31,030 nt of DNA from a virus (IMGVR_UViG_3300044858_005801:1-31030); one strand, 5' to 3'; counted from the first letter of the stretch, positions 3,684 through 30,343 are shown. Translations and numbers: made by a program. The notes: generated from the sequence alone by a model not told the origin.

Positions 3684-4694
3684 CTACGGACCGGGGGGAC
3701 CGGTGGTGGTGGTGGTGGTCGTCGTCGTCGTGGTGGTCGGCGGATCGACGTCACAATTCGCGTTGGCGGTGACGGTCAGCGAGGCAGGCCAGCCGATACA
3801 GGTCGGATTCCAAGGGCTGGCGGGATTGCTGCCGGTGAAGGTGCCTCCAGTATCGGGGTCGAAATCGTACGAGAAGTATCTCTCGACGCCAAAATCCAGT
3901 TCCGCCGGACAAACGTAGCTGGAGGTCGCCGGGTCCCAGATTTTGTACAGCGGCCATCTCAGCCGGGCCTGCGTCTGCGTGCTGGGTCCGTACCACAGCG
4001 AGCCGGGGGGACAGCCGTTGTTGTAGGTGAGCGTGTATTCCCACTGGCAGGTGGCGCCGCCCCACCAGGCCCAACCTTTGCCGCGAAACGGCAGGCACCA
4101 GGTGCGGTTCATCTGGCTGCAAATCTGGTCGTTGCTGCCACACTGGCCCGCTCCCGGACGCAGGCTCACCCCGCTGACGGTGACCTGCATGCTCGGGTGA
4201 GTGCTGCAGTCGCAGGGGGGCTGCGTGGTGGTCGTGGTCGTGGTGCAGGCAGTTCCGGCGGTTGAGACACCCCACCAGTTGCCGTTTTGACGGGTGACCA
4301 GATCGAGCCGCAGCCCGGCACTGCCCGCCGCGTCTCCTACCGTGAACGGGATGGGACAGCCGACGTTGCGGAACGAAAAATCCCGGATCGCCGTCACCGG
4401 AATTTGATCGCGGTACCGCCAGTTCAAGAACTGATCAGGATTGACTTCAATTGTCTGCGACGGCTGCACGAAAACGAAACAGCCAGTGTAGGTCAAATAC
4501 GGCAACGGGACCGGATCGCCATAGGAGTACTGGGCGTTCTGCGTGTATCGCTGCGTCAGATTGAACGGGTCCCAATAGGGTGCGCGTTCGTCGGCGGCGA
4601 CCACAAACTGCAATTGTTGTTCCTGCGTGACCGGGGGCCGCAACTCGGCCCTCCCCCCCTGCTCGGCCTGCCGCAGATACTCATCCAGTTTCAT
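3684..4694 (-). CDS. Tail-tip protein with two poly-threonine tracts (336 aa)
   Basis: The start at ATG 4694 overlaps the previous stop (ATGA). The N-terminus (MKLDEYLRQAEQGG) is helical and similar in style to that of the preceding gene. The body is rich in Trp, Tyr, Cys and Gly, as in beta-rich extracellular domains. A run of seven Thr followed by Q-P-P-C-D-C sits near residues 150-156, separating two globular parts. The C-terminus ends in P-P, twelve Thr, then GPPGP. The second part contains about nine Cys, suggesting disulphides. Position after the hub and before the glycosyltransferase suggests a receptor-binding or tail-tip decoration protein. Poly-Thr linkers flanked by Pro are typical O-glycosylation targets elsewhere; modification here is inference. 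Confidence 0.75.
   Translation of the reverse strand: MKLDEYLRQAEQGGRAELRPPVTQEQQLQFVVAADERAPYWDPFNLTQRYTQNAQYSYGDPVPLPYLTYTGCFVFVQPSQTIEVNPDQFLNWRYRDQIPVTAIRDFSFRNVGCPIPFTVGDAAGSAGLRLDLVTRQNGNWWGVSTAGTACTTTTTTTQPPCDCSTHPSMQVTVSGVSLRPGAGQCGSNDQICSQMNRTWCLPFRGKGWAWWGGATCQWEYTLTYNNGCPPGSLWYGPSTQTQARLRWPLYKIWDPATSSYVCPAELDFGVERYFSYDFDPDTGGTFTGSNPASPWNPTCIGWPASLTVTANANCDVDPPTTTTTTTTTTTTGPPGP
3702..3737 (-). repeat. Twelve-codon poly-Thr tract (C-terminus of the 336-aa protein)
   Basis: Twelve consecutive Thr codons use a mix of ACC and ACG. The mixture breaks up pure trinucleotide slippage and suggests selection for threonine itself. Confidence 0.9.
4224..4244 (-). repeat. Seven-codon poly-Thr tract (interdomain, 336-aa protein)
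   Basis: Seven Thr codons alternate ACC and ACG, between a Trp/Cys-containing domain and a Q-P-P-C-D-C segment. It acts as an interdomain linker. Confidence 0.9.
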
Positions 4695-5245
4695 GGCTGG
4701 CCCCAGATGCGGGGAGCGGGCGAGGTCGTGCTTGTCGTGGTCGTCGTCGTCGTGGTGGTCGTCGTGACCTGGGCCTGCGGACAATTCGTGTACGCCTCGA
4801 GGGCCCAATAGCGGCCGTTGACGTAGGTCGCCAGCACGATGTCGTCGATCTGAAGCGTCAGGCCCACCGAAGTCAGCAGCGGATAGGTCTGCTGGTCGTC
4901 GCGCGGCAGGACCACCAGTTTCCGCCAGCCGAGCCCCCCCGCCGTTTCGTCAAACTGCACATCGACCATCACTCCGAACCACAGTCTGCCGTTGCACGGG
5001 GGGGCGGTGGTGCTGGTGGTCGTGGTGGTCGTGGTGGTCGTCGTCGTCGAGCCCGGGGCCGGGGTCGTCGTCGTCGTCGTGGTGGTCGTCGTCGTTGTGC
5101 CGCTTTCGTTGGCGACAATCCGGAAGAACACATACGGCGACCGCTGGACCACGGGGGGTCGCACCTGGGCGGCCTCGGCCTGGGCCCGGCGGCGGGCCTC
5201 TTCACTGGGGCCGCCGACTGCCTGCAGCGCGTCGCGGAACTTCAT
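4691..5245 (-). CDS. Tail-tip protein with three poly-threonine tracts (184 aa)
   Basis: ATG 5245 overlaps the stop of the hub gene (ATGA). The N-terminal 45 residues are helical and Ala/Arg-rich (MKFRDALQAVGG...), likely the docking segment. Twelve Thr, then PAPGS, then eleven Thr plus S-T-T follow at about residues 50-80. A compact domain of about 80 residues comes next (RLWFGVMVDVQFDE...DDIVLATYVNGRYWALEAY), which looks like a small beta-barrel. It ends with a third tract of eleven Thr plus S-T-T-S and a short Pro-containing tail. The next gene shares this layout, so the two are probably parallel tail-tip components on flexible Thr stalks. No known family is recognised. Confidence 0.75.
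   Translation of the reverse strand: MKFRDALQAVGGPSEEARRRAQAEAAQVRPPVVQRSPYVFFRIVANESGTTTTTTTTTTTTPAPGSTTTTTTTTTTTSTTAPPCNGRLWFGVMVDVQFDETAGGLGWRKLVVLPRDDQQTYPLLTSVGLTLQIDDIVLATYVNGRYWALEAYTNCPQAQVTTTTTTTTTTTSTTSPAPRIWGQP
4724..4765 (-). repeat. Poly-Thr tract (C-terminus of the 184-aa protein)
   Basis: Eleven Thr codons (ACG, ACC, one ACA) are followed by Ser-Thr-Thr. Codons are mixed, as in the other tracts. Confidence 0.9.
5006..5047 (-). repeat. Second poly-Thr tract (184-aa protein)
   Basis: Eleven Thr codons then Ser-Thr-Thr, leading into A-P-P-C and the globular domain. It is separated from the first tract by a PAPGS spacer. Confidence 0.9.
5063..5098 (-). repeat. First poly-Thr tract (184-aa protein)
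   Basis: Twelve Thr codons with mixed third bases (one ACA, the rest ACG or ACC), just after the helical N-terminal docking region. Confidence 0.9.
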
Positions 5246-19388: not shown

Positions 19389-19585
19389 GCGGAATTCCGG
19401 AAGTTTTTTGGGGCTGGAACGGCACTTCCCCGGACGATCCGATCGGGGGTCGAGGTTGACCCGACGACCAACAAACGGCGGAATTCCGCGTTGTGGGGGT
19501 TGCATCCTAACCGCCAGCGGTTATTATTCACCCATCAGACACGCACACCGCGAGTCAGAACCACCAGCCCCGAGGAGTTCGAAAA
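19389..19585 (+). promoter_or_regulatory. Cassette promoter/operator module, copy R1
   Basis: The most diverged of four copies. It starts with CGGAATTCCGG, repeats GCGGAATTCCGC 89 bases on, and then has a promoter: -35 TTGCAT (19500-19505), 16-base spacer containing CCGCCAGCGG, -10 TATTAT (19522-19527). GAGGAG lies eight bases before the ATG of the first gene. Because gpW lies divergently to the left, this is also the boundary between island and late operon. A half-similar CCGCCAGCG occurs at 19366-19374. Confidence 0.7.
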
Positions 19586-19888
19586 ATGAACGTCGCTTCT
19601 GAAATTCTGCGTCAATTGGGTGGCAACCGTTTTCGCGTGATGACTGGCGCCAGACAGTTCCTGTACAGCGACAATTCGCTGCAGTTCCGACTGCCCAACA
19701 ACCCCGGTTTTGTGCGGGACAAAATCAACTGCATCCGGATCACGCTGACCCCGGCCGACGTCTACCGGGTCGAATTCCTGCGGATCGTCGGATCCAAGAT
19801 CACCCCCATCGAGATTTACGACGACGTCTACTGCGACACCTTGGCGGATCTGGTCAGCGACCGGACCGGCTTGGCAGTCAGCCTGTAA
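19586..19888 (+). CDS. Small conserved phage protein, GGN-F-x-MTGA type (100 aa)
   Basis: First gene of cassette 1, with GAGGAG eight bases before ATG. The motif LGGNRFRVMTGARQFLYSDNSLQFRLP, then INCIRITLTPADVYRVEFLRI, then a tail rich in Asp/Tyr (IYDDVYCDTL...TGL) is a pattern I know from small uncharacterised proteins of many phages and mobile elements. Secondary structure looks like alpha-beta with a central sheet; no enzyme motif. Such proteins are often encoded with other small early genes such as ArdC-like proteins, as here. Function unknown. It is followed by a hairpin and then the 170-aa gene. Confidence 0.75.
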   Translation: MNVASEILRQLGGNRFRVMTGARQFLYSDNSLQFRLPNNPGFVRDKINCIRITLTPADVYRVEFLRIVGSKITPIEIYDDVYCDTLADLVSDRTGLAVSL

Positions 19889-19903
19889 CCACCTGGTCCC
19901 GCT

Positions 19904-19930
19904 CCCGGGTTCATCGCCCGGGGGTCTTTT
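19904..19930 (+). terminator. Hairpin with T-rich tail after the 100-aa gene
   Basis: CCCGGG arms around a TTCATCG loop, followed by GGTCTTTTCTG. It is a possible intrinsic terminator or attenuator. The gene after it has its own good ribosome binding site but no promoter, so read-through is expected. Confidence 0.5.
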
Positions 19931-19965
19931 CTGTTCCCAATGTTCCCCCTGTTTTGGAGATTCCG

Positions 19966-20478
19966 ATGAGCGACATTCGAATTTGCGTCCGCGGCGACGA
20001 CGGCGACTACTGGTGTAACCTCCACGGGAGCGACGGCGACCGACTGATTGCAGCGTGCGCCAGCAGGCCGCGGAGCTTGGCCGAACTGTGCCAGGCTGCC
20101 GAAACCTACGCCCGGGGCGCAACCCATTGGGTACAGTATTTCCACGCCGGGCACAATTTCCACCGCTGGGATGCGGGGATGGTCATCATCGACCTGACCT
20201 CCCGGCTGATTGTGGTCAACAGCGGCTACAGCGATCCGCAACTGGTCGACCAAGTCTACTACCACAACGGGTCGTGCAAGACTTCGACCGCCATTCCCTA
20301 CGATCTGACAGCCGACGACTGGCTGATCACCAAAGACCTGCTTCGCCGTATCGATTGGCAGCCGCTGGCAAACCGGCGGTGGGAGCACCTGCATGGTATC
20401 CGCAACAACCCCGAACAGTCTCGATTGACTTTCGGGGCCTATCTCCAGCCGAACCCCGCCCCGTCAGCGACCCCCTGA
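19966..20478 (+). CDS. Duplicated hypothetical protein, copy A (170 aa)
   Basis: ATG 19966 follows TTTTGGAGA; a TTG 12 bases upstream is less likely, since copy B lacks it. I do not recognise the family. It starts MSDIRICVRGDDGDYWCNLHG and has a helix LAELCQAAETYARGATHW. A beta-rich middle follows, YFHAGHNFHRWDAGMVIIDLTSRLIVVNSGY, with several His and aromatic residues, then DWLITKDLLRRIDWQPLANRRWEHLHGIRNN and a Pro-rich end. It resembles a small alpha-beta protein that may recognise a ligand. The protein is identical to the one at 21051-21563. It is second in its cassette both times, after different first genes. Dosage or recent cassette expansion may explain this. Confidence 0.75.
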   Translation: MSDIRICVRGDDGDYWCNLHGSDGDRLIAACASRPRSLAELCQAAETYARGATHWVQYFHAGHNFHRWDAGMVIIDLTSRLIVVNSGYSDPQLVDQVYYHNGSCKTSTAIPYDLTADDWLITKDLLRRIDWQPLANRRWEHLHGIRNNPEQSRLTFGAYLQPNPAPSATP

Positions 20479-20489
20479 CCGACTCCCAC

Positions 20490-20525
20490 CCAGCCCCCCC
20501 GGAACAACCGCTCCGGGGGGGCTGG
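20490..20525 (+). terminator. Strong 14-bp GC hairpin after copy A
   Basis: CCAGCCCCCCCGGA pairs perfectly with TCCGGGGGGGCTGG over an 8-base loop. The T8 run of the following promoter module lies about 25 bases on, too far for a standard terminator, but the stem is very stable. It separates cassette 1 from promoter R2. Confidence 0.65.
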
Positions 20526-20527
20526 CG

Positions 20528-20723
20528 GCGGAATTCCGAAAGTTTTTTTTGGCTGGAACGGCACTTCCCCGGACGATCCGATCGCGGGCCGAGGTCGACC
20601 CGACGACCAAAAAACGGCGGAATTCCGCGTTGTGGGGGTTGCATCGTAACCGCTGGCGGCTAATATGTAACCATGTCAGACGCACAACGCGAATGACGAA
20701 CACCTAGCCCGGAGTGATGACAG
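20528..20723 (+). promoter_or_regulatory. Cassette promoter/operator module, copy R2
   Basis: CGGAATTCCG at 20529-20538 and again at 20618-20627. Promoter: -35 TTGCAT (20639-20644), spacer with CCGCTGGCGG, -10 TAATAT (20661-20666). GTCGAC and CGATCCGATCG sites lie between the palindromes. The gene ATG follows 57 bases after the -10, with GGAG nine bases upstream. This is the only copy with G instead of A at the centre of the spacer palindrome relative to R3 and R4. Confidence 0.75.
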
Positions 20724-20975
20724 ATGTACGACCCCCTCGCTAAGTACGACTTTCAGTTGCAAAACGCCCAGCGGTTGGCTGATGCAAACCTGCCGGACTT
20801 TCATTGCTATCAAGGCTGGAAGTTGCGGGGCAAGCAGGTCAAGAAGGGTGCCAAGCAACGGGCGATCCGTGTCCGCGAGGGTGGCTACCAGACAATGGAC
20901 CCGATCACCGGGGAGCAGTTCTGGGAGCCCAAATGGGTGACAGCCTACGGTTTCGGTGCCGATCAGGTTTATTAA
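20724..20975 (+). CDS. Small ArdC-N-like protein (83 aa)
   Basis: First gene of cassette 2, with GGAG nine bases upstream of ATG. The segment CYQGWKLRGKQVKKGAKQRAIRV, then a loop with TGEQFWEP and a final YGFGADQVY, resembles the core of the ArdC/LtrC N-terminal single-strand DNA-binding domain (W-x-x-x-G-R-Q-V-K-K-G-E-K-x-x-x-I). It is reduced to one domain, without the metalloprotease part of full ArdC. ArdC proteins protect incoming DNA from restriction, so a role in defence evasion or DNA binding is possible. The likeness is by motif, and the short length makes it tentative. Confidence 0.6.
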   Translation: MYDPLAKYDFQLQNAQRLADANLPDFHCYQGWKLRGKQVKKGAKQRAIRVREGGYQTMDPITGEQFWEPKWVTAYGFGADQVY

Positions 20976-20987
20976 ACACCACACCCC

Positions 20988-21012
20988 GCCCCCGGGTTCA
21001 TCGCCCGGGGGC
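20988..21012 (+). terminator. 9-bp GC hairpin after the 83-aa gene
   Basis: GCCCCCGGG and CCCGGGGGC surround the same TTCATCG loop as the hairpin at 19904, followed by CTTTCTTCT. It is a sister copy with a longer stem. Probable terminator or attenuator inside cassette 2. Confidence 0.55.
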
Positions 21013-21050
21013 CTTTCTTCTCCCCTGCAACCCCTGTTTAGGAGATTCCG

Positions 21051-21563
21051 ATGAGCGACATTCGAATTTGCGTCCGCGGCGACGACGGCGACTACTGGTG
21101 CAACCTCCACGGGAGCGACGGCGACCGACTGATTGCAGCGTGCGCCAGCAGGCCGCGGAGCTTGGCCGAACTGTGCCAGGCTGCCGAAACCTACGCCCGG
21201 GGCGCAACCCATTGGGTACAGTATTTCCACGCCGGGCACAATTTCCACCGCTGGGATGCGGGGATGGTCATCATCGACCTGACCTCCCGGCTGATTGTGG
21301 TCAACAGCGGCTACAGCGATCCGCAACTGGTCGACCAAGTCTACTACCACAACGGGTCGTGCAAGACTTCGACCGCCATTCCCTACGATCTGACAGCCGA
21401 CGACTGGCTGATCACCAAAGACCTGCTTCGCCGTATCGATTGGCAGCCGCTGGCAAACCGGCGGTGGGAGCACCTGCATGGTATCCGCAACAACCCCGAA
21501 CAGTCTCGATTGACTTTCGGGGCCTATCTCCAGCCGAACCCCGCCCCGTCAGCGACCCCCTGA
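21051..21563 (+). CDS. Duplicated hypothetical protein, copy B (170 aa)
   Basis: Identical in protein sequence to the gene at 19966-20478; one silent T to C change was seen in codon 17. AGGAGA lies before the ATG. It is second in cassette 2, behind the ArdC-like gene, and is followed by the same 14-bp hairpin and by promoter R3, which drives the amidoligase. Near-zero divergence means the duplication is recent or kept uniform by gene conversion. It is unrelated by sequence to its neighbours. No function is proposed. Confidence 0.75.
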   Translation: MSDIRICVRGDDGDYWCNLHGSDGDRLIAACASRPRSLAELCQAAETYARGATHWVQYFHAGHNFHRWDAGMVIIDLTSRLIVVNSGYSDPQLVDQVYYHNGSCKTSTAIPYDLTADDWLITKDLLRRIDWQPLANRRWEHLHGIRNNPEQSRLTFGAYLQPNPAPSATP

Positions 21564-21574
21564 CCGACTCCCAC

Positions 21575-21610
21575 CCAGCCCCCCCGGAACAACCGCTCCG
21601 GGGGGGCTGG
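21575..21610 (+). terminator. Strong 14-bp GC hairpin after copy B
   Basis: Exact copy of the hairpin at 20490-20525, placed between cassette 2 and promoter R3. Confidence 0.65.
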
Positions 21611-21612
21611 CG

Positions 21613-21808
21613 GCGGAATTCCGAAAGTTTTTTTTGGCTGGAACGGCACTTCCCCGGACGATCCGATCGCGGGCCGAGGTCGACCCGACGACCAAAAAAC
21701 GGCGGAATTCCGCGTTGTGGGGGTTGCATCGTAACCGCTAGCGGCTAATATGTAACCATGTCAGACGCACAACGCGAATGACGAACACCAGCCCCGCGAG
21801 ACACGATC
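21613..21808 (+). promoter_or_regulatory. Cassette promoter/operator module, copy R3
   Basis: Both CGGAATTCCG palindromes are present. -35 TTGCAT (21724-21729), spacer with the perfect palindrome CCGCTAGCGG, -10 TAATAT (21746-21751). The last 19 bases before the amidoligase ATG differ from R2 and R4, and the ribosome binding site there is weak. Confidence 0.75.
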
Positions 21809-22654
21809 ATGCTGACCGCCAACGACACGACGTTCGGAATCGAAATCGAGTGCCTGATCCCCGACACCGTCCGGATCGCTCTCGGTTACTACCACAACGG
21901 CCGCCAGATCGACGGCCTGCCCACCGGTTGGAACGCCCAGACCGACGGGTCGATCGTTCGCCGCTCCGGGTTCTACGCCGTCGAGATCGTCAGCCCGGTG
22001 CTGCGGGGTGCCGAGGGGCTGGCCCAGGTCGCCCAGGTGTGCCAGTGGCTCAACTCGATCGGGGCCGAAGTCAACGCCTCCTGCGGTCTGCACGTGCACG
22101 TCGGCTGGTCGGGTGACAAAGCTGCCACGATCCGCCTGACGACGATGGTCGCCAACCACGAAAAAGCGATCTTCGCCAGCACCGGGACCCACAGCCGCGA
22201 GCGCGGCACCTACTGCCGCGGTGTGCGGAACGACCGCACGATGCGGTCCGAATTCCTCGACAACGATACCGCCCGCCAGAGCAGCCGCTATCACGTGCTC
22301 AATCTGACAAACCTTGCCCGCCGCCAGCCGACTGTCGAGTTCCGGGCCTTCGCTGGCACCACCAACGCCCGCAAGATTGCCGGGTATGTCCGCCTGTGTG
22401 TGGGACTGGTCAACAAAGCTGCCAACGCCAAACGGACCATCAAGTGGGACAGTTCGACCGTCGTCGCCAGCAGCCCGGTCCGCAAGGGTGGCGAGGGGCA
22501 GACCGAGCTGAACCGGTTGTTTTTCGCGCTCGGTTGGAACAAGGGTCGGACCGCGACGGTCTGGGGTGCGATCGACACCCCCGAGGGGTGCCCGACCCTC
22601 GCCGACAGCAAGGCCAAGCTGATGGAACTGGCCAAGAAATACGACGGCGAGTAG
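21809..22654 (+). CDS. Amidoligase, glutamine-synthetase-like COOH-NH2 ligase (281 aa)
   Basis: Matches the Amidoligase_2 family of ATP-dependent carboxylate-amine ligases. FGIEIEC at 9-15 supplies the metal-binding acidic pair. Then come DGSI (46-49), EIVSP (59-63), SCGLHVHVG (91-99) and TVEFRAF (175-181) with its catalytic-type Arg, and a helix IAGYVRLCVGLVN. These occur in family order, and length is typical. Members are thought to join amino acids or peptides through isopeptide-like bonds, some tagging proteins or altering cell-wall peptides. First gene of cassette 3, with a class II amidotransferase behind it as possible ammonia or amine supplier. Family call is strong; substrate unknown. 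Confidence 0.88.
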   Translation: MLTANDTTFGIEIECLIPDTVRIALGYYHNGRQIDGLPTGWNAQTDGSIVRRSGFYAVEIVSPVLRGAEGLAQVAQVCQWLNSIGAEVNASCGLHVHVGWSGDKAATIRLTTMVANHEKAIFASTGTHSRERGTYCRGVRNDRTMRSEFLDNDTARQSSRYHVLNLTNLARRQPTVEFRAFAGTTNARKIAGYVRLCVGLVNKAANAKRTIKWDSSTVVASSPVRKGGEGQTELNRLFFALGWNKGRTATVWGAIDTPEGCPTLADSKAKLMELAKKYDGE

Positions 22655-22668
22655 TCGCCGCGAACCGG

Positions 22669-22693
22669 GGGGGGGCGGGTGGTCCGCCCCCCC
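22669..22693 (+). terminator. 10-bp GC hairpin between amidoligase and amidotransferase
   Basis: GGGGGGGCGG and CCGCCCCCCC surround a GTGGT loop. No U-tract follows. More likely an mRNA-stabilising or partial attenuation element, since the amidotransferase has no separate promoter. Confidence 0.5.
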
Positions 22694-22732
22694 TCCTGCG
22701 ACCATTGTTCCGCTTCCTGTCAGGAGTGCATC

Positions 22733-23380
22733 ATGTGCGGAGTGTTCGGATTCACCAGCAACAACGGCAATCCGGTCGACCTGGGTCGGCTGCGGGAGAT
22801 TGCCACTGTCACGAACAGCCGGGGTAACCACGCGTGGGGCATGGCGTGGATCAACAGCCGGGGTCGGTTGTGTCAGTTTCGGCAGTCGGGGCCGATTGTT
22901 GACGCCCTGCCGCTGCTGTCGATGGCCCGCGACGCCGTGGCGCTGATCGGTCACTGCCGCTACGCCACTCAAGGGAGCCCAGACGACGCCGTCAACAACC
23001 ACCCGCACCCGGCGGACGGGGGGTGGATCGTCCACAACGGCATGCTCCACGGCTACCGCCAACTCGTGCGGGATCACGGGTTGCTGCCCGTCTCACAGTG
23101 TGATTCAGAGGTCCTCGGTCTGCTGATTGAACGACTCGACGGAGACGACCTGATCGACCGGGTGGCCGAGGCCACCGCCGCGGCGCTGCGTCCCCAGCGG
23201 TCGGCATTAGTGTTGCTTGGGCTGTGGAAGCCGGGCCAGGTGATCGCGGTCCGGCGGGGGAACCCGCTTGTGACCAGCCAGACCCGGCGTGGCGTTTGGC
23301 TCGCGTCGCTGCCCGGGGGACTGCCCGCCACGGTGCGCGAGGTCCCCGACCAGCACGTGCTGGCGTTCCAGGCCCGCTAG
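22733..23380 (+). CDS. Class II glutamine amidotransferase (215 aa)
   Basis: ATG 22733 has CAGGAG upstream, and cleavage of Met leaves the catalytic Cys2 at the N-terminus (MCGVFGFT), as Ntn-type GATases need. Further family motifs: RGNHAWG (30-36), GHCRYAT (73-79), NNHPH (88-92), VHNGML (100-105) and CDSEVL (123-128). It is a free-standing glutaminase domain without a synthetase half. It would hydrolyse glutamine to supply ammonia, or act as an amide hydrolase in reverse of the amidoligase next to it. Published comparative work on amidoligases (Iyer and co-workers) describes such pairings in phages and bacteria. It shares its stop with the convergent zinc-ribbon gene. Confidence 0.88.
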   Translation: MCGVFGFTSNNGNPVDLGRLREIATVTNSRGNHAWGMAWINSRGRLCQFRQSGPIVDALPLLSMARDAVALIGHCRYATQGSPDDAVNNHPHPADGGWIVHNGMLHGYRQLVRDHGLLPVSQCDSEVLGLLIERLDGDDLIDRVAEATAAALRPQRSALVLLGLWKPGQVIAVRRGNPLVTSQTRRGVWLASLPGGLPATVREVPDQHVLAFQAR

Positions 23381-23619
23381 TTCCGGAGCGGATCGTCACA
23401 GGAACCACCGTCGCCCGGCAGGTGGACGACCCGCCCCTGCGAGTCGACCGCCCAGGTCAACGCCACCTCCACCGGGACGCTAACCCCCGGGTGGTGCTCG
23501 ACGTCAAAACAGTCGTCGCACTGGTAGACGGGCAGCTCGACTGCGGCCACCGTCACGACCCCCGCCAGACCGGCGGGACGCCCGCACCGTAAGCAGTCAC
23601 AGACGGGTTGGGGTTTCAT
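23377..23619 (-). CDS. Small zinc-ribbon protein on the opposite strand (80 aa)
   Basis: ATG 23619 starts MKPQPVCDCLRCGRPAG. C7-x-C9-x2-C12 pairs with a second knuckle YQCDDCFDVEHHPG, giving a C-x2-C...C-x2-C zinc ribbon with VTVAAVELPVYQ strands between. The rest is a small beta domain. It is the only minus-strand gene inside the island and runs tail to tail with the amidotransferase, their stop codons overlapping. No promoter or ribosome binding site is obvious. The clean Cys pattern makes it likely real. Role unknown; zinc ribbons of this size are usually DNA- or protein-binding adaptors. Confidence 0.6.
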   Translation of the reverse strand: MKPQPVCDCLRCGRPAGLAGVVTVAAVELPVYQCDDCFDVEHHPGVSVPVEVALTWAVDSQGRVVHLPGDGGSCDDPLRN

Positions 23620-23742
23620 GCGAACCACGCGACAGGAGACGGCAGAGAGGCTACCAGCCGTCGGGAACCGCGTTCCCTGCCGGGTGGCAGCACGATGTCT
23701 GGCACTCTACCACCGGCAGACCACGACTGGACACCCACCCCA

Positions 23743-23937
23743 GCGGAATTCCGAAAGTTTTTTGGGGCTGGAACGGCACTTCCCCGGACGATCCGATCGC
23801 GGGCCGAGGTCGACCCGACGACCAAAAACCGGCGGAATTCCGCGTTGTGGGGGTTGCATCGTAACCGCTAGCGGCTAATATGTAACCATGTCAGACGCAC
23901 AACGCGAACGACGAACACCAGCCCGGAGTGATGAGAG
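23743..23937 (+). promoter_or_regulatory. Cassette promoter/operator module, copy R4
   Basis: Both palindromes are present. -35 TTGCAT (23854-23859), spacer with CCGCTAGCGG, -10 TAATAT (23876-23881), GGAG nine bases before ATG 23938. Similarity to R1 extends a little upstream (CACCCCAGCGG against CATCCCAGCGG). The 120 bases between the zinc-ribbon start and this module hold nothing I can identify. Confidence 0.75.
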
Positions 23938-24096
23938 ATGCCTAGCCTGACTGAAGCCTTGAACGCTGGCCTTGCCATGATTCGTGCCGACAAGTCTGTC
24001 GCGTCTGTGGTTGTGGCTGGACTTTCGATCGGTGGCGTGGTTCGCACCTTCGAGATCTTCCGCGACGAGTCGATTCGACAGATTGACGCGAAGTAG
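23938..24096 (+). CDS. Small protein (52 aa), first gene of cassette 4
   Basis: ATG 23938 lies nine bases after GGAG in the promoter module, in the same place as the 83-aa gene start in cassette 2. The product starts MPSLTEALNAGLAMIRADKS. It has a hydrophobic VVVAGLSIGGVV segment, borderline as a membrane helix, and ends FRDESIRQIDAK. Too small to classify. The shared promoter architecture and the hairpin right after its stop support it as a gene. It could be a peptide modulator or small DNA mimic, but nothing shows this. Confidence 0.55.
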   Translation: MPSLTEALNAGLAMIRADKSVASVVVAGLSIGGVVRTFEIFRDESIRQIDAK

Positions 24097-24167: not shown

Positions 24168-24557
24168 ATGTTCGTGATCATTGAAACCACCGGCTCGCAA
24201 CTCGTCGACCACAACGGACGCTGCACCGGACCAGAGACCAAACAGGAATTATCTCGGCACCGAACTCAAGAGACCGCTGAACGGGCTTTAGCCAACCTGC
24301 GAAAGACGATGCCGGTGTTTGCGCTGAACTGCCGGATTGTTGAGTACAGTCCTCCCGGGGTGATCGTCACGTACTGGCGAGGAGACAAGCAGTACACCGA
24401 GACCGCCAAGACGTACCGGGGAGCGAAGCGAATCGCCTCGCTCAGTCAAAACAGGATCGGCCCAACGTATCGCACGTTCGACGGTCGCGAGTTGTTCGAC
24501 GACGGACACGGACTGTGGTTCGAAGAGAGCGACAACCGCCGCGTGTACGTTGTGTGA
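24168..24557 (+). CDS. Hypothetical protein (129 aa)
   Basis: ATG 24168 has GGAG seven bases upstream; an ATG at 24156 overlaps that site and is less likely. The protein begins MFVIIETTGSQLVDHNGRC. It has a helix ETAERALANLRKTM, a strand NCRIVEYSPPGVIVTYWRG and an acidic-aromatic end (FDDGHGLWFEESDNRRVYVV). It looks like a small alpha-beta phage protein. No family or catalytic motif recognised. Second gene of cassette 4, between two hairpins. Confidence 0.65.
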   Translation: MFVIIETTGSQLVDHNGRCTGPETKQELSRHRTQETAERALANLRKTMPVFALNCRIVEYSPPGVIVTYWRGDKQYTETAKTYRGAKRIASLSQNRIGPTYRTFDGRELFDDGHGLWFEESDNRRVYVV

Positions 24558-24660: not shown

Positions 24661-24891
24661 GTGACCCGCAAACGCTATCACCCACCGCTGAAACTGTACT
24701 CCACGGCTGAGGCCGCTACTGACCTGCAGGTCTCGCCCGAGACCGTCCGCCGACTGGCCCGGCTGCGCCACCTCGGCGTACGCAAGGGGCGCGACTGGCT
24801 GTTCACCCCGCACGACCTCGACCAGATGCGCGCCCGCCCCCGCGTGGGGACCTACGACCGCAGCCGCCCGAACAAAAAGGCCGCGCCATGA
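24661..24891 (+). CDS. Small HTH protein, excisionase/MerR-type (76 aa)
   Basis: GTG 24661 follows CAGGAGA and is chosen over a longer upstream frame that reads through two hairpins. The core LYSTAEAATDLQVSPETVRRLARLRHLGVRKGRDWLFTPHDLDQMRARP is a winged helix-turn-helix of the HTH_17/excisionase type: A-A-x-x-L-x-V-S-x-x-T-V-R-R-L then R-x-x-W-x-F-x-x-x-D-L. The C-terminus is basic. Such proteins act as excisionases or transcription factors. It is the only DNA-binding regulator seen in the island, hence a candidate to act on the four promoter modules. It overlaps the ASCH gene by ATGA. Confidence 0.75.
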   Translation: MTRKRYHPPLKLYSTAEAATDLQVSPETVRRLARLRHLGVRKGRDWLFTPHDLDQMRARPRVGTYDRSRPNKKAAP

Positions 24892-25325
24892 TCCTGCGAG
24901 CACTGACGATTAAACAGCCTTGGGCCTCGCTGCTCGTGGCGGGCGTCAAGACGGTGGAAAACCGCAGTTGGACCACCGCGTATCGAGGGCCGCTGGCGAT
25001 CCACGCCGGGGCGGCCCGCGAGCGCAACGCGGCCCAGATGATCGCCGATTGCTTGGGCCGCGATTTGACCCCCAGCGAGCGGGCGCGGTGGTTGCTCGAC
25101 GCCGAGTTGCCGCACGGCCAGGTACTGGGGGTGGTCGAGCTGCTCGACGTCGTGCCGGTCGAGCAGACCCACGAGGTGGAGAGCCCGTGGGCGATCGGCC
25201 CGTGGTGCTGGCGGGTGCGACCCTCCCAGCAGTTTCAGCCCCACGCCCGCCCCGCCTTAGCCGGAAAACTTGGGCTCTGGAAATGGGAATCGGGCGACCT
25301 GCGGATTGGCAAGTGGCGGGAGTGA
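24888..25325 (+). CDS. ASCH-domain protein (145 aa)
   Basis: The start overlaps the HTH stop (ATGA). The N-terminus LRALTIKQPWASLLVAGVKTVENRSW, then YRGPLAIHAG near residues 32-41, is the hallmark of ASCH proteins, a beta-barrel fold related to PUA. Later GQVLGVVELLDVV, then a W-x-x-G-P-W-C-W strand and a C-terminal GKLGLWKWE, also fit. ASCH proteins bind RNA or nucleosides, and some hydrolyse N4-acetylcytidine; the phage versions are common and mostly uncharacterised. It closes cassette 4 and the island, and is followed by a hairpin shared with the convergent nuclease gene. Confidence 0.85.
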   Translation: MILRALTIKQPWASLLVAGVKTVENRSWTTAYRGPLAIHAGAARERNAAQMIADCLGRDLTPSERARWLLDAELPHGQVLGVVELLDVVPVEQTHEVESPWAIGPWCWRVRPSQQFQPHARPALAGKLGLWKWESGDLRIGKWRE

Positions 25326-28894: not shown

Positions 28895-29048
28895 TCATCT
28901 CCACCAGAGCAACGGCGGCTTTGACCCGGGCGGCGGGAGGGGTCTGCCCGTCGGCAATGATCTGCGCCAGCACCCGCGGCACAACCGAGAGCATCTGCGG
29001 AGTGATCAGCCAGCGAGTCTGTTCTGCGGCGGGAGTCGGATCGCTCAT
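28632..29048 (-). CDS. Small helical protein overlapping the small terminase (138 aa)
   Basis: ATG 29048 overlaps the stop of the ABC/GNAT gene (ATGA). The first 58 residues (WLITPQMLSVVPRVLAQIIAD, then ARVKAAVALVEMNEQNARL) form two good helices and lie outside the overlap. Residues 81-106 (AVRIELSAEGLEALRGN...) look folded while the terminase frame opposite is low complexity. The last 30 residues are disordered where the terminase frame becomes structured. This alternation suggests both overlapping frames are used. Function unknown; position before TerS suggests a packaging or copy-control accessory. Confidence 0.6.
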   Translation of the reverse strand: MSDPTPAAEQTRWLITPQMLSVVPRVLAQIIADGQTPPAARVKAAVALVEMNEQNARLSRLTAESVPGSASPGDAAGAPPAVRIELSAEGLEALRGNFLGRLAAAGESGGSAGTAAPGRVVETDQPRRRRAARGANPG

Positions 29049-30343
29049 TCATCGACCACCCGATAGGTGTACCTGTCGCGTCCCTTTCCGGAACCCAGTC
29101 GCCGCAGCCGGCCCGCGGCGATCTGGTTTTGGGCCCAGCGGTCAAACAGTGACCCGCAGACCTGCCCTAGGTCCAGCAGTTTTTCGCGGGTCCGGTTGGG
29201 GTGTTGGCGGACCAGGTCGGACAAATCCACCCGCCGGATCGTCTCGGCCTGCTCTCGCGGCAGGGCCGGGCCCACGTATTCAAAGCTGGCGGTTTGGCGC
29301 CCGAACGACGTGCGGTGATTTGAGGTTCTGCCTTTGCTGAACACGTGCGTTGTGGGGGTTGCGGTCAGTTTCTGGCTGATCCGCCAGAGCGGGGAGCGGT
29401 AGCGGTGCGCGATCATTGCGGGGTGTCCCGTCCGACTGTAGTACCGTTCTCCACAGCCGCGATAGATCGACCCGACCGCAGCCGACATGGCTTGGCCCAA
29501 CCCGACCCCCTGAAAATCCGGCAGGCAGACCAGCCGGCTCTCGCGCCACTGGCCCACGCCATTGGGCGAGCTGATCACGGCGGCAAACGTCGCCGGCCGC
29601 CCGTCGACCGTCCCCAAAAAACACTCAGCCCCCGCTTTCAACTCGGCGTTCAGATAGTGATGGTGTGCGAACTGCCGCCAAGCCGAATCGCGGACCCGCT
29701 GAATCTCGAGGGTGATGCGTGGTCGTTGTTGAAGCGACCTCCATCGGAACTCGCCGGTGTGGGGCTCGTAGGTCCAGTCCGGCTGCAGCCACCCCACGAT
29801 ATCGTCGTGACACGCCACCCCCACAAATTTGGTCCCCGGCCGCGCCCGAATCGCCTTGGCCACGGCCGCCGATCCGATCCGGGCCACGGTCCGATCGACC
29901 ACCGAGGTGAACTCATCGATCACCGCCAGCGACGACTCGGCCAACGCCCGCGCCAGCGTCACCCGAAACTGCTCGCCGTTTGACAGGCAGGCGAATGGCC
30001 GCAGCCACGCCGGCGGCGACGAAAACCCAACCGACGACAACAGGCCCGTAACCTCTTTGATTGACAGAGTTTCGGGAAAACCATCGACCACCGCAGCCCC
30101 CGGTTTCCACTCAAAACCACTCACCAGGTTCTCCCCGAAAAACTCCCGGGCAATCGTCGACTTGCCGCAGCCCGACGGGCCATGGATCAGACCGATCTGC
30201 CACGGTTGTTCGTCGATCGGCAGCGTCACCTCCCAGGTCAGTTCCGACCGTTTCGAGGGGGGCAAATCGAACATCCCCTCGAGTTGTTTCACCCGGGCCG
30301 ACCGGGCGACTGGGGAACTCCTTACGATACGATGGCTCGGCAT
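29045..30343 (-). CDS. ABC-type ATPase fused to GNAT and winged-helix domains (432 aa)
   Basis: ATG 30343 has GGGGGA upstream. Residues 30-225 are an ABC ATPase: Walker A GPSGCGKST (55-63), signature LSNGEQ (120-125), Walker B LAVIDE (139-144), D-loop SVVD and a switch His near VACHDD. There are no membrane segments, so it is not a transporter. Residues 230-335 form a GNAT-like fold with LVCLPDFQGVGLGQAM, a real acetyl-CoA-binding Q-G-x-G-x-A-type loop. The last 65 residues (LSDLVRQHPNRTREKLLDL...RLRRLGSGKGRDRYTYRV) look like a winged helix. It lies between the ParB-like gene and terminase, an arrangement known from other phages but of unknown role. Confidence 0.8.
   Translation of the reverse strand: MPSHRIVRSSPVARSARVKQLEGMFDLPPSKRSELTWEVTLPIDEQPWQIGLIHGPSGCGKSTIAREFFGENLVSGFEWKPGAAVVDGFPETLSIKEVTGLLSSVGFSSPPAWLRPFACLSNGEQFRVTLARALAESSLAVIDEFTSVVDRTVARIGSAAVAKAIRARPGTKFVGVACHDDIVGWLQPDWTYEPHTGEFRWRSLQQRPRITLEIQRVRDSAWRQFAHHHYLNAELKAGAECFLGTVDGRPATFAAVISSPNGVGQWRESRLVCLPDFQGVGLGQAMSAAVGSIYRGCGERYYSRTGHPAMIAHRYRSPLWRISQKLTATPTTHVFSKGRTSNHRTSFGRQTASFEYVGPALPREQAETIRRVDLSDLVRQHPNRTREKLLDLGQVCGSLFDRWAQNQIAAGRLRRLGSGKGRDRYTYRVVDE

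Follow-up and report, generated by a model that had tools for sequence, protein, structure and literature searches.

The DNA analysed here, referred to as the window, is the IMG/VR virus record IMGVR_UViG_3300044858_005801 (31,030 bp, classed as linear). Between positions 19389 and 25325 it carries a plus-strand block of genes, in the order A, B1, C, B2, D, E, F, G, H, I, in which four copies of one control module (R1 to R4) head four unrelated cassette genes (Table 1). The genes on both sides lie on the minus strand: one flank encodes the portal, a fused protease/major head protein and tail genes, the other an endonuclease, the terminase and a ParB-like gene, the portal and tail names being assigned from position and sequence, without a family match. 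In the related contig L021, whose TerL is 80% identical, P134 and gpW are separated by ~105 nucleotides (nt) in place of the ~6 kb found in the window. This makes the block an accessory island, oriented antisense to the late genes, and its insertion between two genes that are neighbours in a relative is characteristic of morons. R1 to R4 are probably copies of a portable expression module in the moron island of an uncultured tailed phage.

Anatomy and recurrence of the modules

Repeat search and alignment uphold the four copies described in the initial annotation as near-identical modules of 196 bases, although the conserved block spans ~189 columns and R1 is only ~85% identical to R2-R4, which share ~96-97% identity. 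Searches of the whole window, both at the DNA level and with an RNA model, returned exactly these four modules. Each carries two CGGAATTCCG palindromes 89 bases apart, as annotated, and all eight sites of the window fall inside modules; in shuffled sequence, with one mismatch allowed, the mean was 2.0 sites and eight were never reached. The CGATCCGATCG site was likewise found in every module, whereas the GTCGAC site is limited to R2-R4 and reads GTTGAC in R1. The annotated promoter TTGCAT-16-TAATAT holds in all four copies for TTGCAT and the spacing, with TATTAT as the -10 of R1, and its spacer is CCGCnnGCGG throughout. A Shine-Dalgarno-like sequence follows in each, and an ATG (at 19586, 20724, 21809 and 23938) lies 56-58 nt past the -10, in agreement with the start codons noted initially. 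An inverted repeat (CGCGTTGTG/CACAACGCG) around the promoter of the window copies was discarded, as it is not retained in most relatives.

Table 1. Coordinates of the modules, leader hairpins and genes of the accessory island.
Feature	Position	Strand	Details
Module R1	19389-19577	+	Palindromes 19390-19399 and 19479-19488; -35 TTGCAT 19500-19505; -10 TATTAT 19522-19527
R1 5' leader hairpin	19536-19558	+	ATG-less variant; stem GAC.CGC-ACACC-GCG.GUC; 26.1 bits
Cassette gene A	19586-19888	+	100 aa (amino acids); phrog_9437, E 3e-25
Terminator-like hairpin after A	19901-19925	+	Short T tract
Gene B1	19966-20478	+	170 aa; no family match; 99.7% identical to B2 region
Module R2	20528-20716	+	-35 20639-20644; -10 TAATAT 20661-20666; hairpin 20675-20697
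R2 5' leader hairpin	20675-20697	+	35.1 bits
Cassette gene C	20724-20975	+	83 aa; not in sister contig L005
Terminator-like hairpin after C	20988-21012	+	
Gene B2	21051-21563	+	Duplicate of B1
Module R3	21613-21801	+	-35 21724-21729; -10 21746-21751; hairpin 21760-21782
R3 5' leader hairpin	21760-21782	+	35.1 bits
Cassette gene D	21809-22654	+	Amidoligase_2, PF12224, E 2.7e-26
Gene E	22733-23380	+	Class II glutamine amidotransferase
Module R4	23743-23931	+	-35 23854-23859; -10 23876-23881; hairpin 23890-23912; L005 counterpart chimeric
R4 5' leader hairpin	23890-23912	+	31.7 bits
Cassette gene F	23938-24096	+	52 aa; unrelated X in its place in L005
Gene G	24168-24557	+	Y and Z in its place in L005
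Gene H	24661-24891	+	HTH_17/excisionase-like DNA-binding protein; near island end; conserved in relatives
Gene I	24888-25325	+	ASCH domain protein; island end

Searches with the terminase and gene A identified seven relatives (L005, L023, L027, L028, L029, L030 and L031), in all of which H and I are retained where the island ends on the terminase side. A module profile matched in six of the seven, and the diverged module of L029 was found by eye. These TerL relatives carry diverged modules in the same island, between the gpW and terminase genes, and the R1 type recurs at the equivalent place in L005 and L023. Scanning IMG/VR with the leader sequence described below added five more phage contigs (L039, L041, L042, L044 and L045), three of which have a TTGAC(A/T)-17-TATAGT promoter; in L041 and L042, other structural genes lie nearby and the near-consensus TTGACA-17-TATAGT precedes the same leader. 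Strong hairpins occur immediately upstream of R2 (where the hairpin is GC-rich) and R3 as well as in L039, but not clearly so for R1 and R4.

The core shared by 21 modules in eleven contigs consists of a sigma70-type promoter, a 23-nt leader, a Shine-Dalgarno sequence and a start codon. Nearly all 21 display TTGnnn-16/18-TATNNT, the best of them matching 11 of 12 consensus bases. The leader element begins 35-38 nt after the start of the -35, its first paired base lies ~8 nt past the -10, and 21-28 nt, including a purine-rich Shine-Dalgarno-like sequence, separate the hairpin from the start codon. Every one of the 21 cores is followed by a Shine-Dalgarno-like sequence and a start codon. The modules thus resemble promoters and stand at gene starts, as first proposed, and are not dispersed repeats unconnected with them. 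The genes behind them are indeed different: 20 proteins compared, one of which stands behind a degenerate module, fall into 15 unrelated families. Beyond this group, no match to the module turned up among 50,697 phage records and 72,556 plasmids. In IMG/VR, a scan for two CGGAATTCCG sites 75-105 apart gave only unrelated contexts besides L005, and the exact promoter pattern retrieved L005 alone. Two contigs retrieved with a degenerate leader pattern (L067 and L068) were rejected as coding look-alikes (MSYAERARQLG) without a promoter. In the islands of L030 and L028, module-less cassettes are separated by a second repeated unit, made up of GCCCCCGGCACATCGCCGGGGGC and TGATGGAGATGATGACAGATG, which combines a hairpin with an attached Shine-Dalgarno sequence and start codon.

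The 5' leader hairpin

Conservation within the module is highest in a 23-nt leader that follows closely after the -10 and that the initial annotation had overlooked. It folds as GUCA-GA-CGC-ACAAC-GCG-AA-UGAC and equivalents. For covariation analysis, 23-nt elements were cut by hand to register the upper stem and then aligned with MAFFT without structure, giving a gapless alignment of 11 sequences. L039_R2 was excluded because it does not fit without gaps, although its architecture is kept. Changes on both sides of the stem were found in seven of nine pairs; the independent changes are few, at least five when the stems are judged by eye. None of 500 shuffles attained the covariation score of 0.40, which fell to 0.10 or less when the partner was slid by one to three columns. 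RNAalifold recovered the identical stem unprompted, and single-sequence folding gave z values mostly of -2.6 to -4.7. In the R1-type leader, which lacks the ATG, the stem is shifted but kept. All four window copies are recovered by a covariance model, which also predicted, independently, a leader in L028 (20.1 bits, E 0.006) that lacks a promoter and stands ahead of a gene whose L039 homologue carries a full module. Against Rfam, the leader had no family match, and only two sub-threshold chance matches arose, both outside it. If transcription starts 7 nt past the -10, at the presumed start site, the hairpin would begin 2-3 bases from the 5' end. The leader is best read as a conserved hairpin of a new kind, which would probably stabilise or insulate the 5' end of the mRNA.

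Cassette exchange between close relatives

Exchange was assessed in a single pair of near-identical phages, the window and its sister contig L005. Identity is 99.6-100% in the late genes that were compared and 100% in R1 and gene A, while the remainder of the island is mostly 87.7-98% identical. L005 has a single B gene, lacks the C-B2-R3 unit and carries genes X-Y-Z after its last module where the window has F-G. As far as the second palindrome, this last module shares 99% identity with R4, a value that drops to 72% beyond it. Informative sites number 57: every one of the first 32 agrees with R4, and 19 of the final 25 agree with L027. The module is thus chimeric, and the breakpoint falls at the second palindrome (permutation p<1e-5). 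In L027, a single module heads gene X, the same gene that is found behind the chimeric module of L005. The comparison is direct evidence of recombination inside a module, accompanied by cassette replacement, and the initial suggestion that cassettes are shuffled by recombination in or between modules is borne out. Within the window, the B1 and B2 regions (19966-20527 and 21051-21612), duplicated together with the following module, differ at two of 582 sites (99.7% identity), which points to a recent duplication or gene conversion, or else to an assembly problem.

From these features, an explanation of how the module would work can be proposed. Each module opens with a variable upstream part, followed by a sigma70-type promoter that would be used by the host RNA polymerase. 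The first ~25 nt of the transcript would fold into the conserved hairpin, and a Shine-Dalgarno sequence lies between this hairpin and the start codon of any accessory gene placed there. GC-rich hairpins, probably terminators, stand between many cassettes. The likeness of the modules would allow copies in one phage or in different relatives to recombine by homology, so that the cassettes behind them are duplicated, deleted and swapped.

Gene A has relatives in 47 phage records, including Pseudomonas jumbo phages and Sinorhizobium phages. Genes D and E (21809-23380) form an amidoligase-amidotransferase pair, both members of which are also present in L005, and the pair suggests a role in peptide or cell-wall modification. 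Between E and R4, a minus-strand open reading frame (ORF) of 83 aa with CxxC motifs (23377-23628) is 94% identical in L005 and has no confident family. G+C content is 56.6-57.9% in A, C, F and G, against ~65% in the flanks, and is not lower in D, E, H and I. PADLOC assigned none of the cassettes to a defence family, the one hit being a weak HTH match for H. When genome contigs were scanned with the terminase alignment for a host, the sole match was a 25% relative. Outside the island, upstream of the terminase genes, a single ORF (29045-30343; phrog_11143, E 9e-102) combines an ABC-ATPase part with an acetyltransferase-like end, and at 3684-5245 two tail-region ORFs contain long threonine runs that derive from GTC/GTG-rich minus-strand repeats.

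Known systems and alternative explanations

The promoter-early stem-loops (PeSLs) of T4-type phages (Arbiol et al. 2010; Comeau et al. 2014; cited in PMC4503421) are likewise reported to combine a repeated sigma70-like promoter with stem-loop cassettes in an ORFan-rich region, and their copies to recombine, shuffling genes among close relatives. Nearly all the repeats studied here have a sigma70-like promoter, and recombination between repeats has shuffled genes between the window and L005. The phage is not of T4 type, however: its TerL belongs to the phrog_15 family, with closest matches ~25% identical and mostly from phage genomes of 29-86 kb, and its protease is fused to the major head protein. 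In addition, the conserved hairpin lies here in the 5' leader of the transcript, and the terminator-like hairpins, which are distinct from it, are missing in places. Because the phage is not T4-type and sequence kinship is not detectable, the module is not counted as a PeSL; the units are best read as moron-like expression cassettes that work in the manner of the PeSLs of T4-type phages. The morons of lambdoid and other phages are likewise accessory genes between neighbours in a relative, with their own promoter, often a terminator and in some cases lower G+C (PMC4378225). As far as sequence can tell, a consensus promoter is present here and terminator sites are partial. Morons are unrelated single insertions, whereas the cassettes of the window form an array governed by a common, homologous control module and are inserted in antisense orientation to the late genes.

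The start-associated sequences (SAS/ESAS) of cluster K mycobacteriophages are also conserved repeats that stand ahead of numerous unrelated accessory genes, and some have inverted repeats upstream; the SAS is a 13-bp sequence, GGGATAGGAGCCC, located 3-7 bp before the start codon (PMC3203893). No copy of GGGATAGGAGCCC occurs in the window, even with two mismatches, and the conserved part of the module is instead a promoter plus a hairpin ending 21-28 nt upstream of the start. In the haloarchaeal virus HGTV-1, a repeated TATA-box/inverted-repeat motif is similarly promoter-like, precedes many ORFs and was proposed to aid shuffling (PMC3950731), but it is an archaeal promoter in another virus, and shuffling was argued there by analogy whereas a chimeric module was found here. 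Finally, 5'-terminal mRNA-stabilising stem-loops such as those of ompA and papA (references in PMC3997798) resemble the leader hairpin, which would likewise sit no more than 2-3 nt from the start of the transcript and ahead of the Shine-Dalgarno sequence. The phage hairpin differs in being common to unrelated cassettes and in travelling with the promoter, and its stabilising effect is putative.

Several alternatives to the portable expression module have to be weighed. The initial annotation had taken the spacer palindrome for a classic repressor site, and in a repressor-controlled regulon CCGCnnGCGG and the upstream CGGAATTCCG would be operators of one phage regulator, perhaps the HTH_17 protein H, switching all cassettes. 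The palindromes are present in all four window copies, the first CGGAATTCCG survives in several relatives, H is retained at the island end, and L030_R2 has another strong spacer dyad (ACGATCG-ATAC-CGATCGT, p 0.007), which would fit lineage-specific operators. Recent copies would be alike anyway, however, so identity within the window says little about function. Most of the palindromes are specific to the lineage: CCGCnnGCGG occurs only in the window and its sister and, like the second CGGAATTCCG, is missing from L005_R3, L023, L027-L030, L039 and L041-L045, and dyads are significant in only two of 19 distinct spacers. The repressor reading is thereby weakened and appears rather unlikely, although regulation by H would be compatible with the portable module as an extra layer. 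A quite different view, in which the modules are mobile non-autonomous elements, either miniature inverted-repeat transposable element (MITE)-like or integron-type attachment sites moved by a recombinase, would account for repeated units that flank gene cassettes. It is scarcely credible given that the modules keep one orientation relative to the gene and always precede the start codon, that in the window and the L023 record they are confined to the island, that the L005 junction is homologous and inside a module, and that no recombinase gene was recognised among the proteins examined.

The remaining alternatives concern the leader. As a DNA operator just past the start site, its inverted repeat would be equally expected to show compensatory changes, arising as it co-evolved with a dimeric repressor. 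However, one and the same phage can have different stems (R1 and R2 of the window, L044_R1 and L044_R2, L039_R1 and L039_R3), which one repressor could hardly tolerate, and the L028 stem includes a G-U pair that, as G-T in DNA, would pair only as RNA. Both observations favour RNA, and an operator is accordingly improbable. It is equally doubtful that the hairpin is a regulatory RNA, acting either as the target of a protein from the phage or its host or as a put/nut-like element for antitermination through the inter-cassette hairpins. The A...C pentaloop and upper stem are conserved, and many module-less genes, for example B, G, Y and Z, stand behind strong hairpins. Nevertheless, the element has no likeness to a described Rfam family, its stem sequence varies while pairing is retained, and known antitermination sites comprise more than one short hairpin. 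Were it so, an unlikely case, the 23-nt leader would be a new phage RNA element, distributed over unrelated accessory genes of several groups of phages, the site of a trans-acting regulator or a compact antiterminator, and one RNA motif would control a whole exchangeable pool of accessory genes, with polymerase passing the inter-cassette hairpins. A leaderless mini-ORF (MS[DN]AQRE...) coupling translation to the cassette would explain the ATG at the presumed start site of most copies and the overlap with the cassette start codon (ATGA/TGATG) in several. In L005 (6871-7773), the ATG of the R2 leader is fused in frame with D, a possible N-terminal extension (MSDAQRERRTPAPRDTT). A leader peptide was rejected as a general explanation, since R1-type leaders have ATC for ATG, others stop after seven codons and pairwise codon changes are mostly non-synonymous (85 versus 22 synonymous); the mini-ORF is therefore very unlikely.

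A number of points nonetheless weigh against the portable expression module. The window promoters are weak matches to sigma70, with just 7-8 of 12 consensus bases, which is why a sigma70 consensus scan missed them. Termination is uncertain because the T tracts after the inter-cassette hairpins are short. Compensatory change alone cannot tell an RNA hairpin from a DNA dyad, and the L039_R3 leader, the sole such case among those tested, folds no better than shuffles (z -1.0). Most of the relatives are fragmentary contigs, and the duplication of B with its module could in principle be an assembly error.

The module constitutes a directly testable plug-in design of promoter, hairpin, ribosome site and gene, and its previously undescribed, covarying 5' hairpin offers a means of locating accessory genes in phages that have not been cultured. 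The acquisition of morons has been called mysterious (PMC4378225), and their entry and exit are usually invisible. Here, near-identical phages show the loss, gain and replacement of cassettes, with a breakpoint inside the control module that they share.

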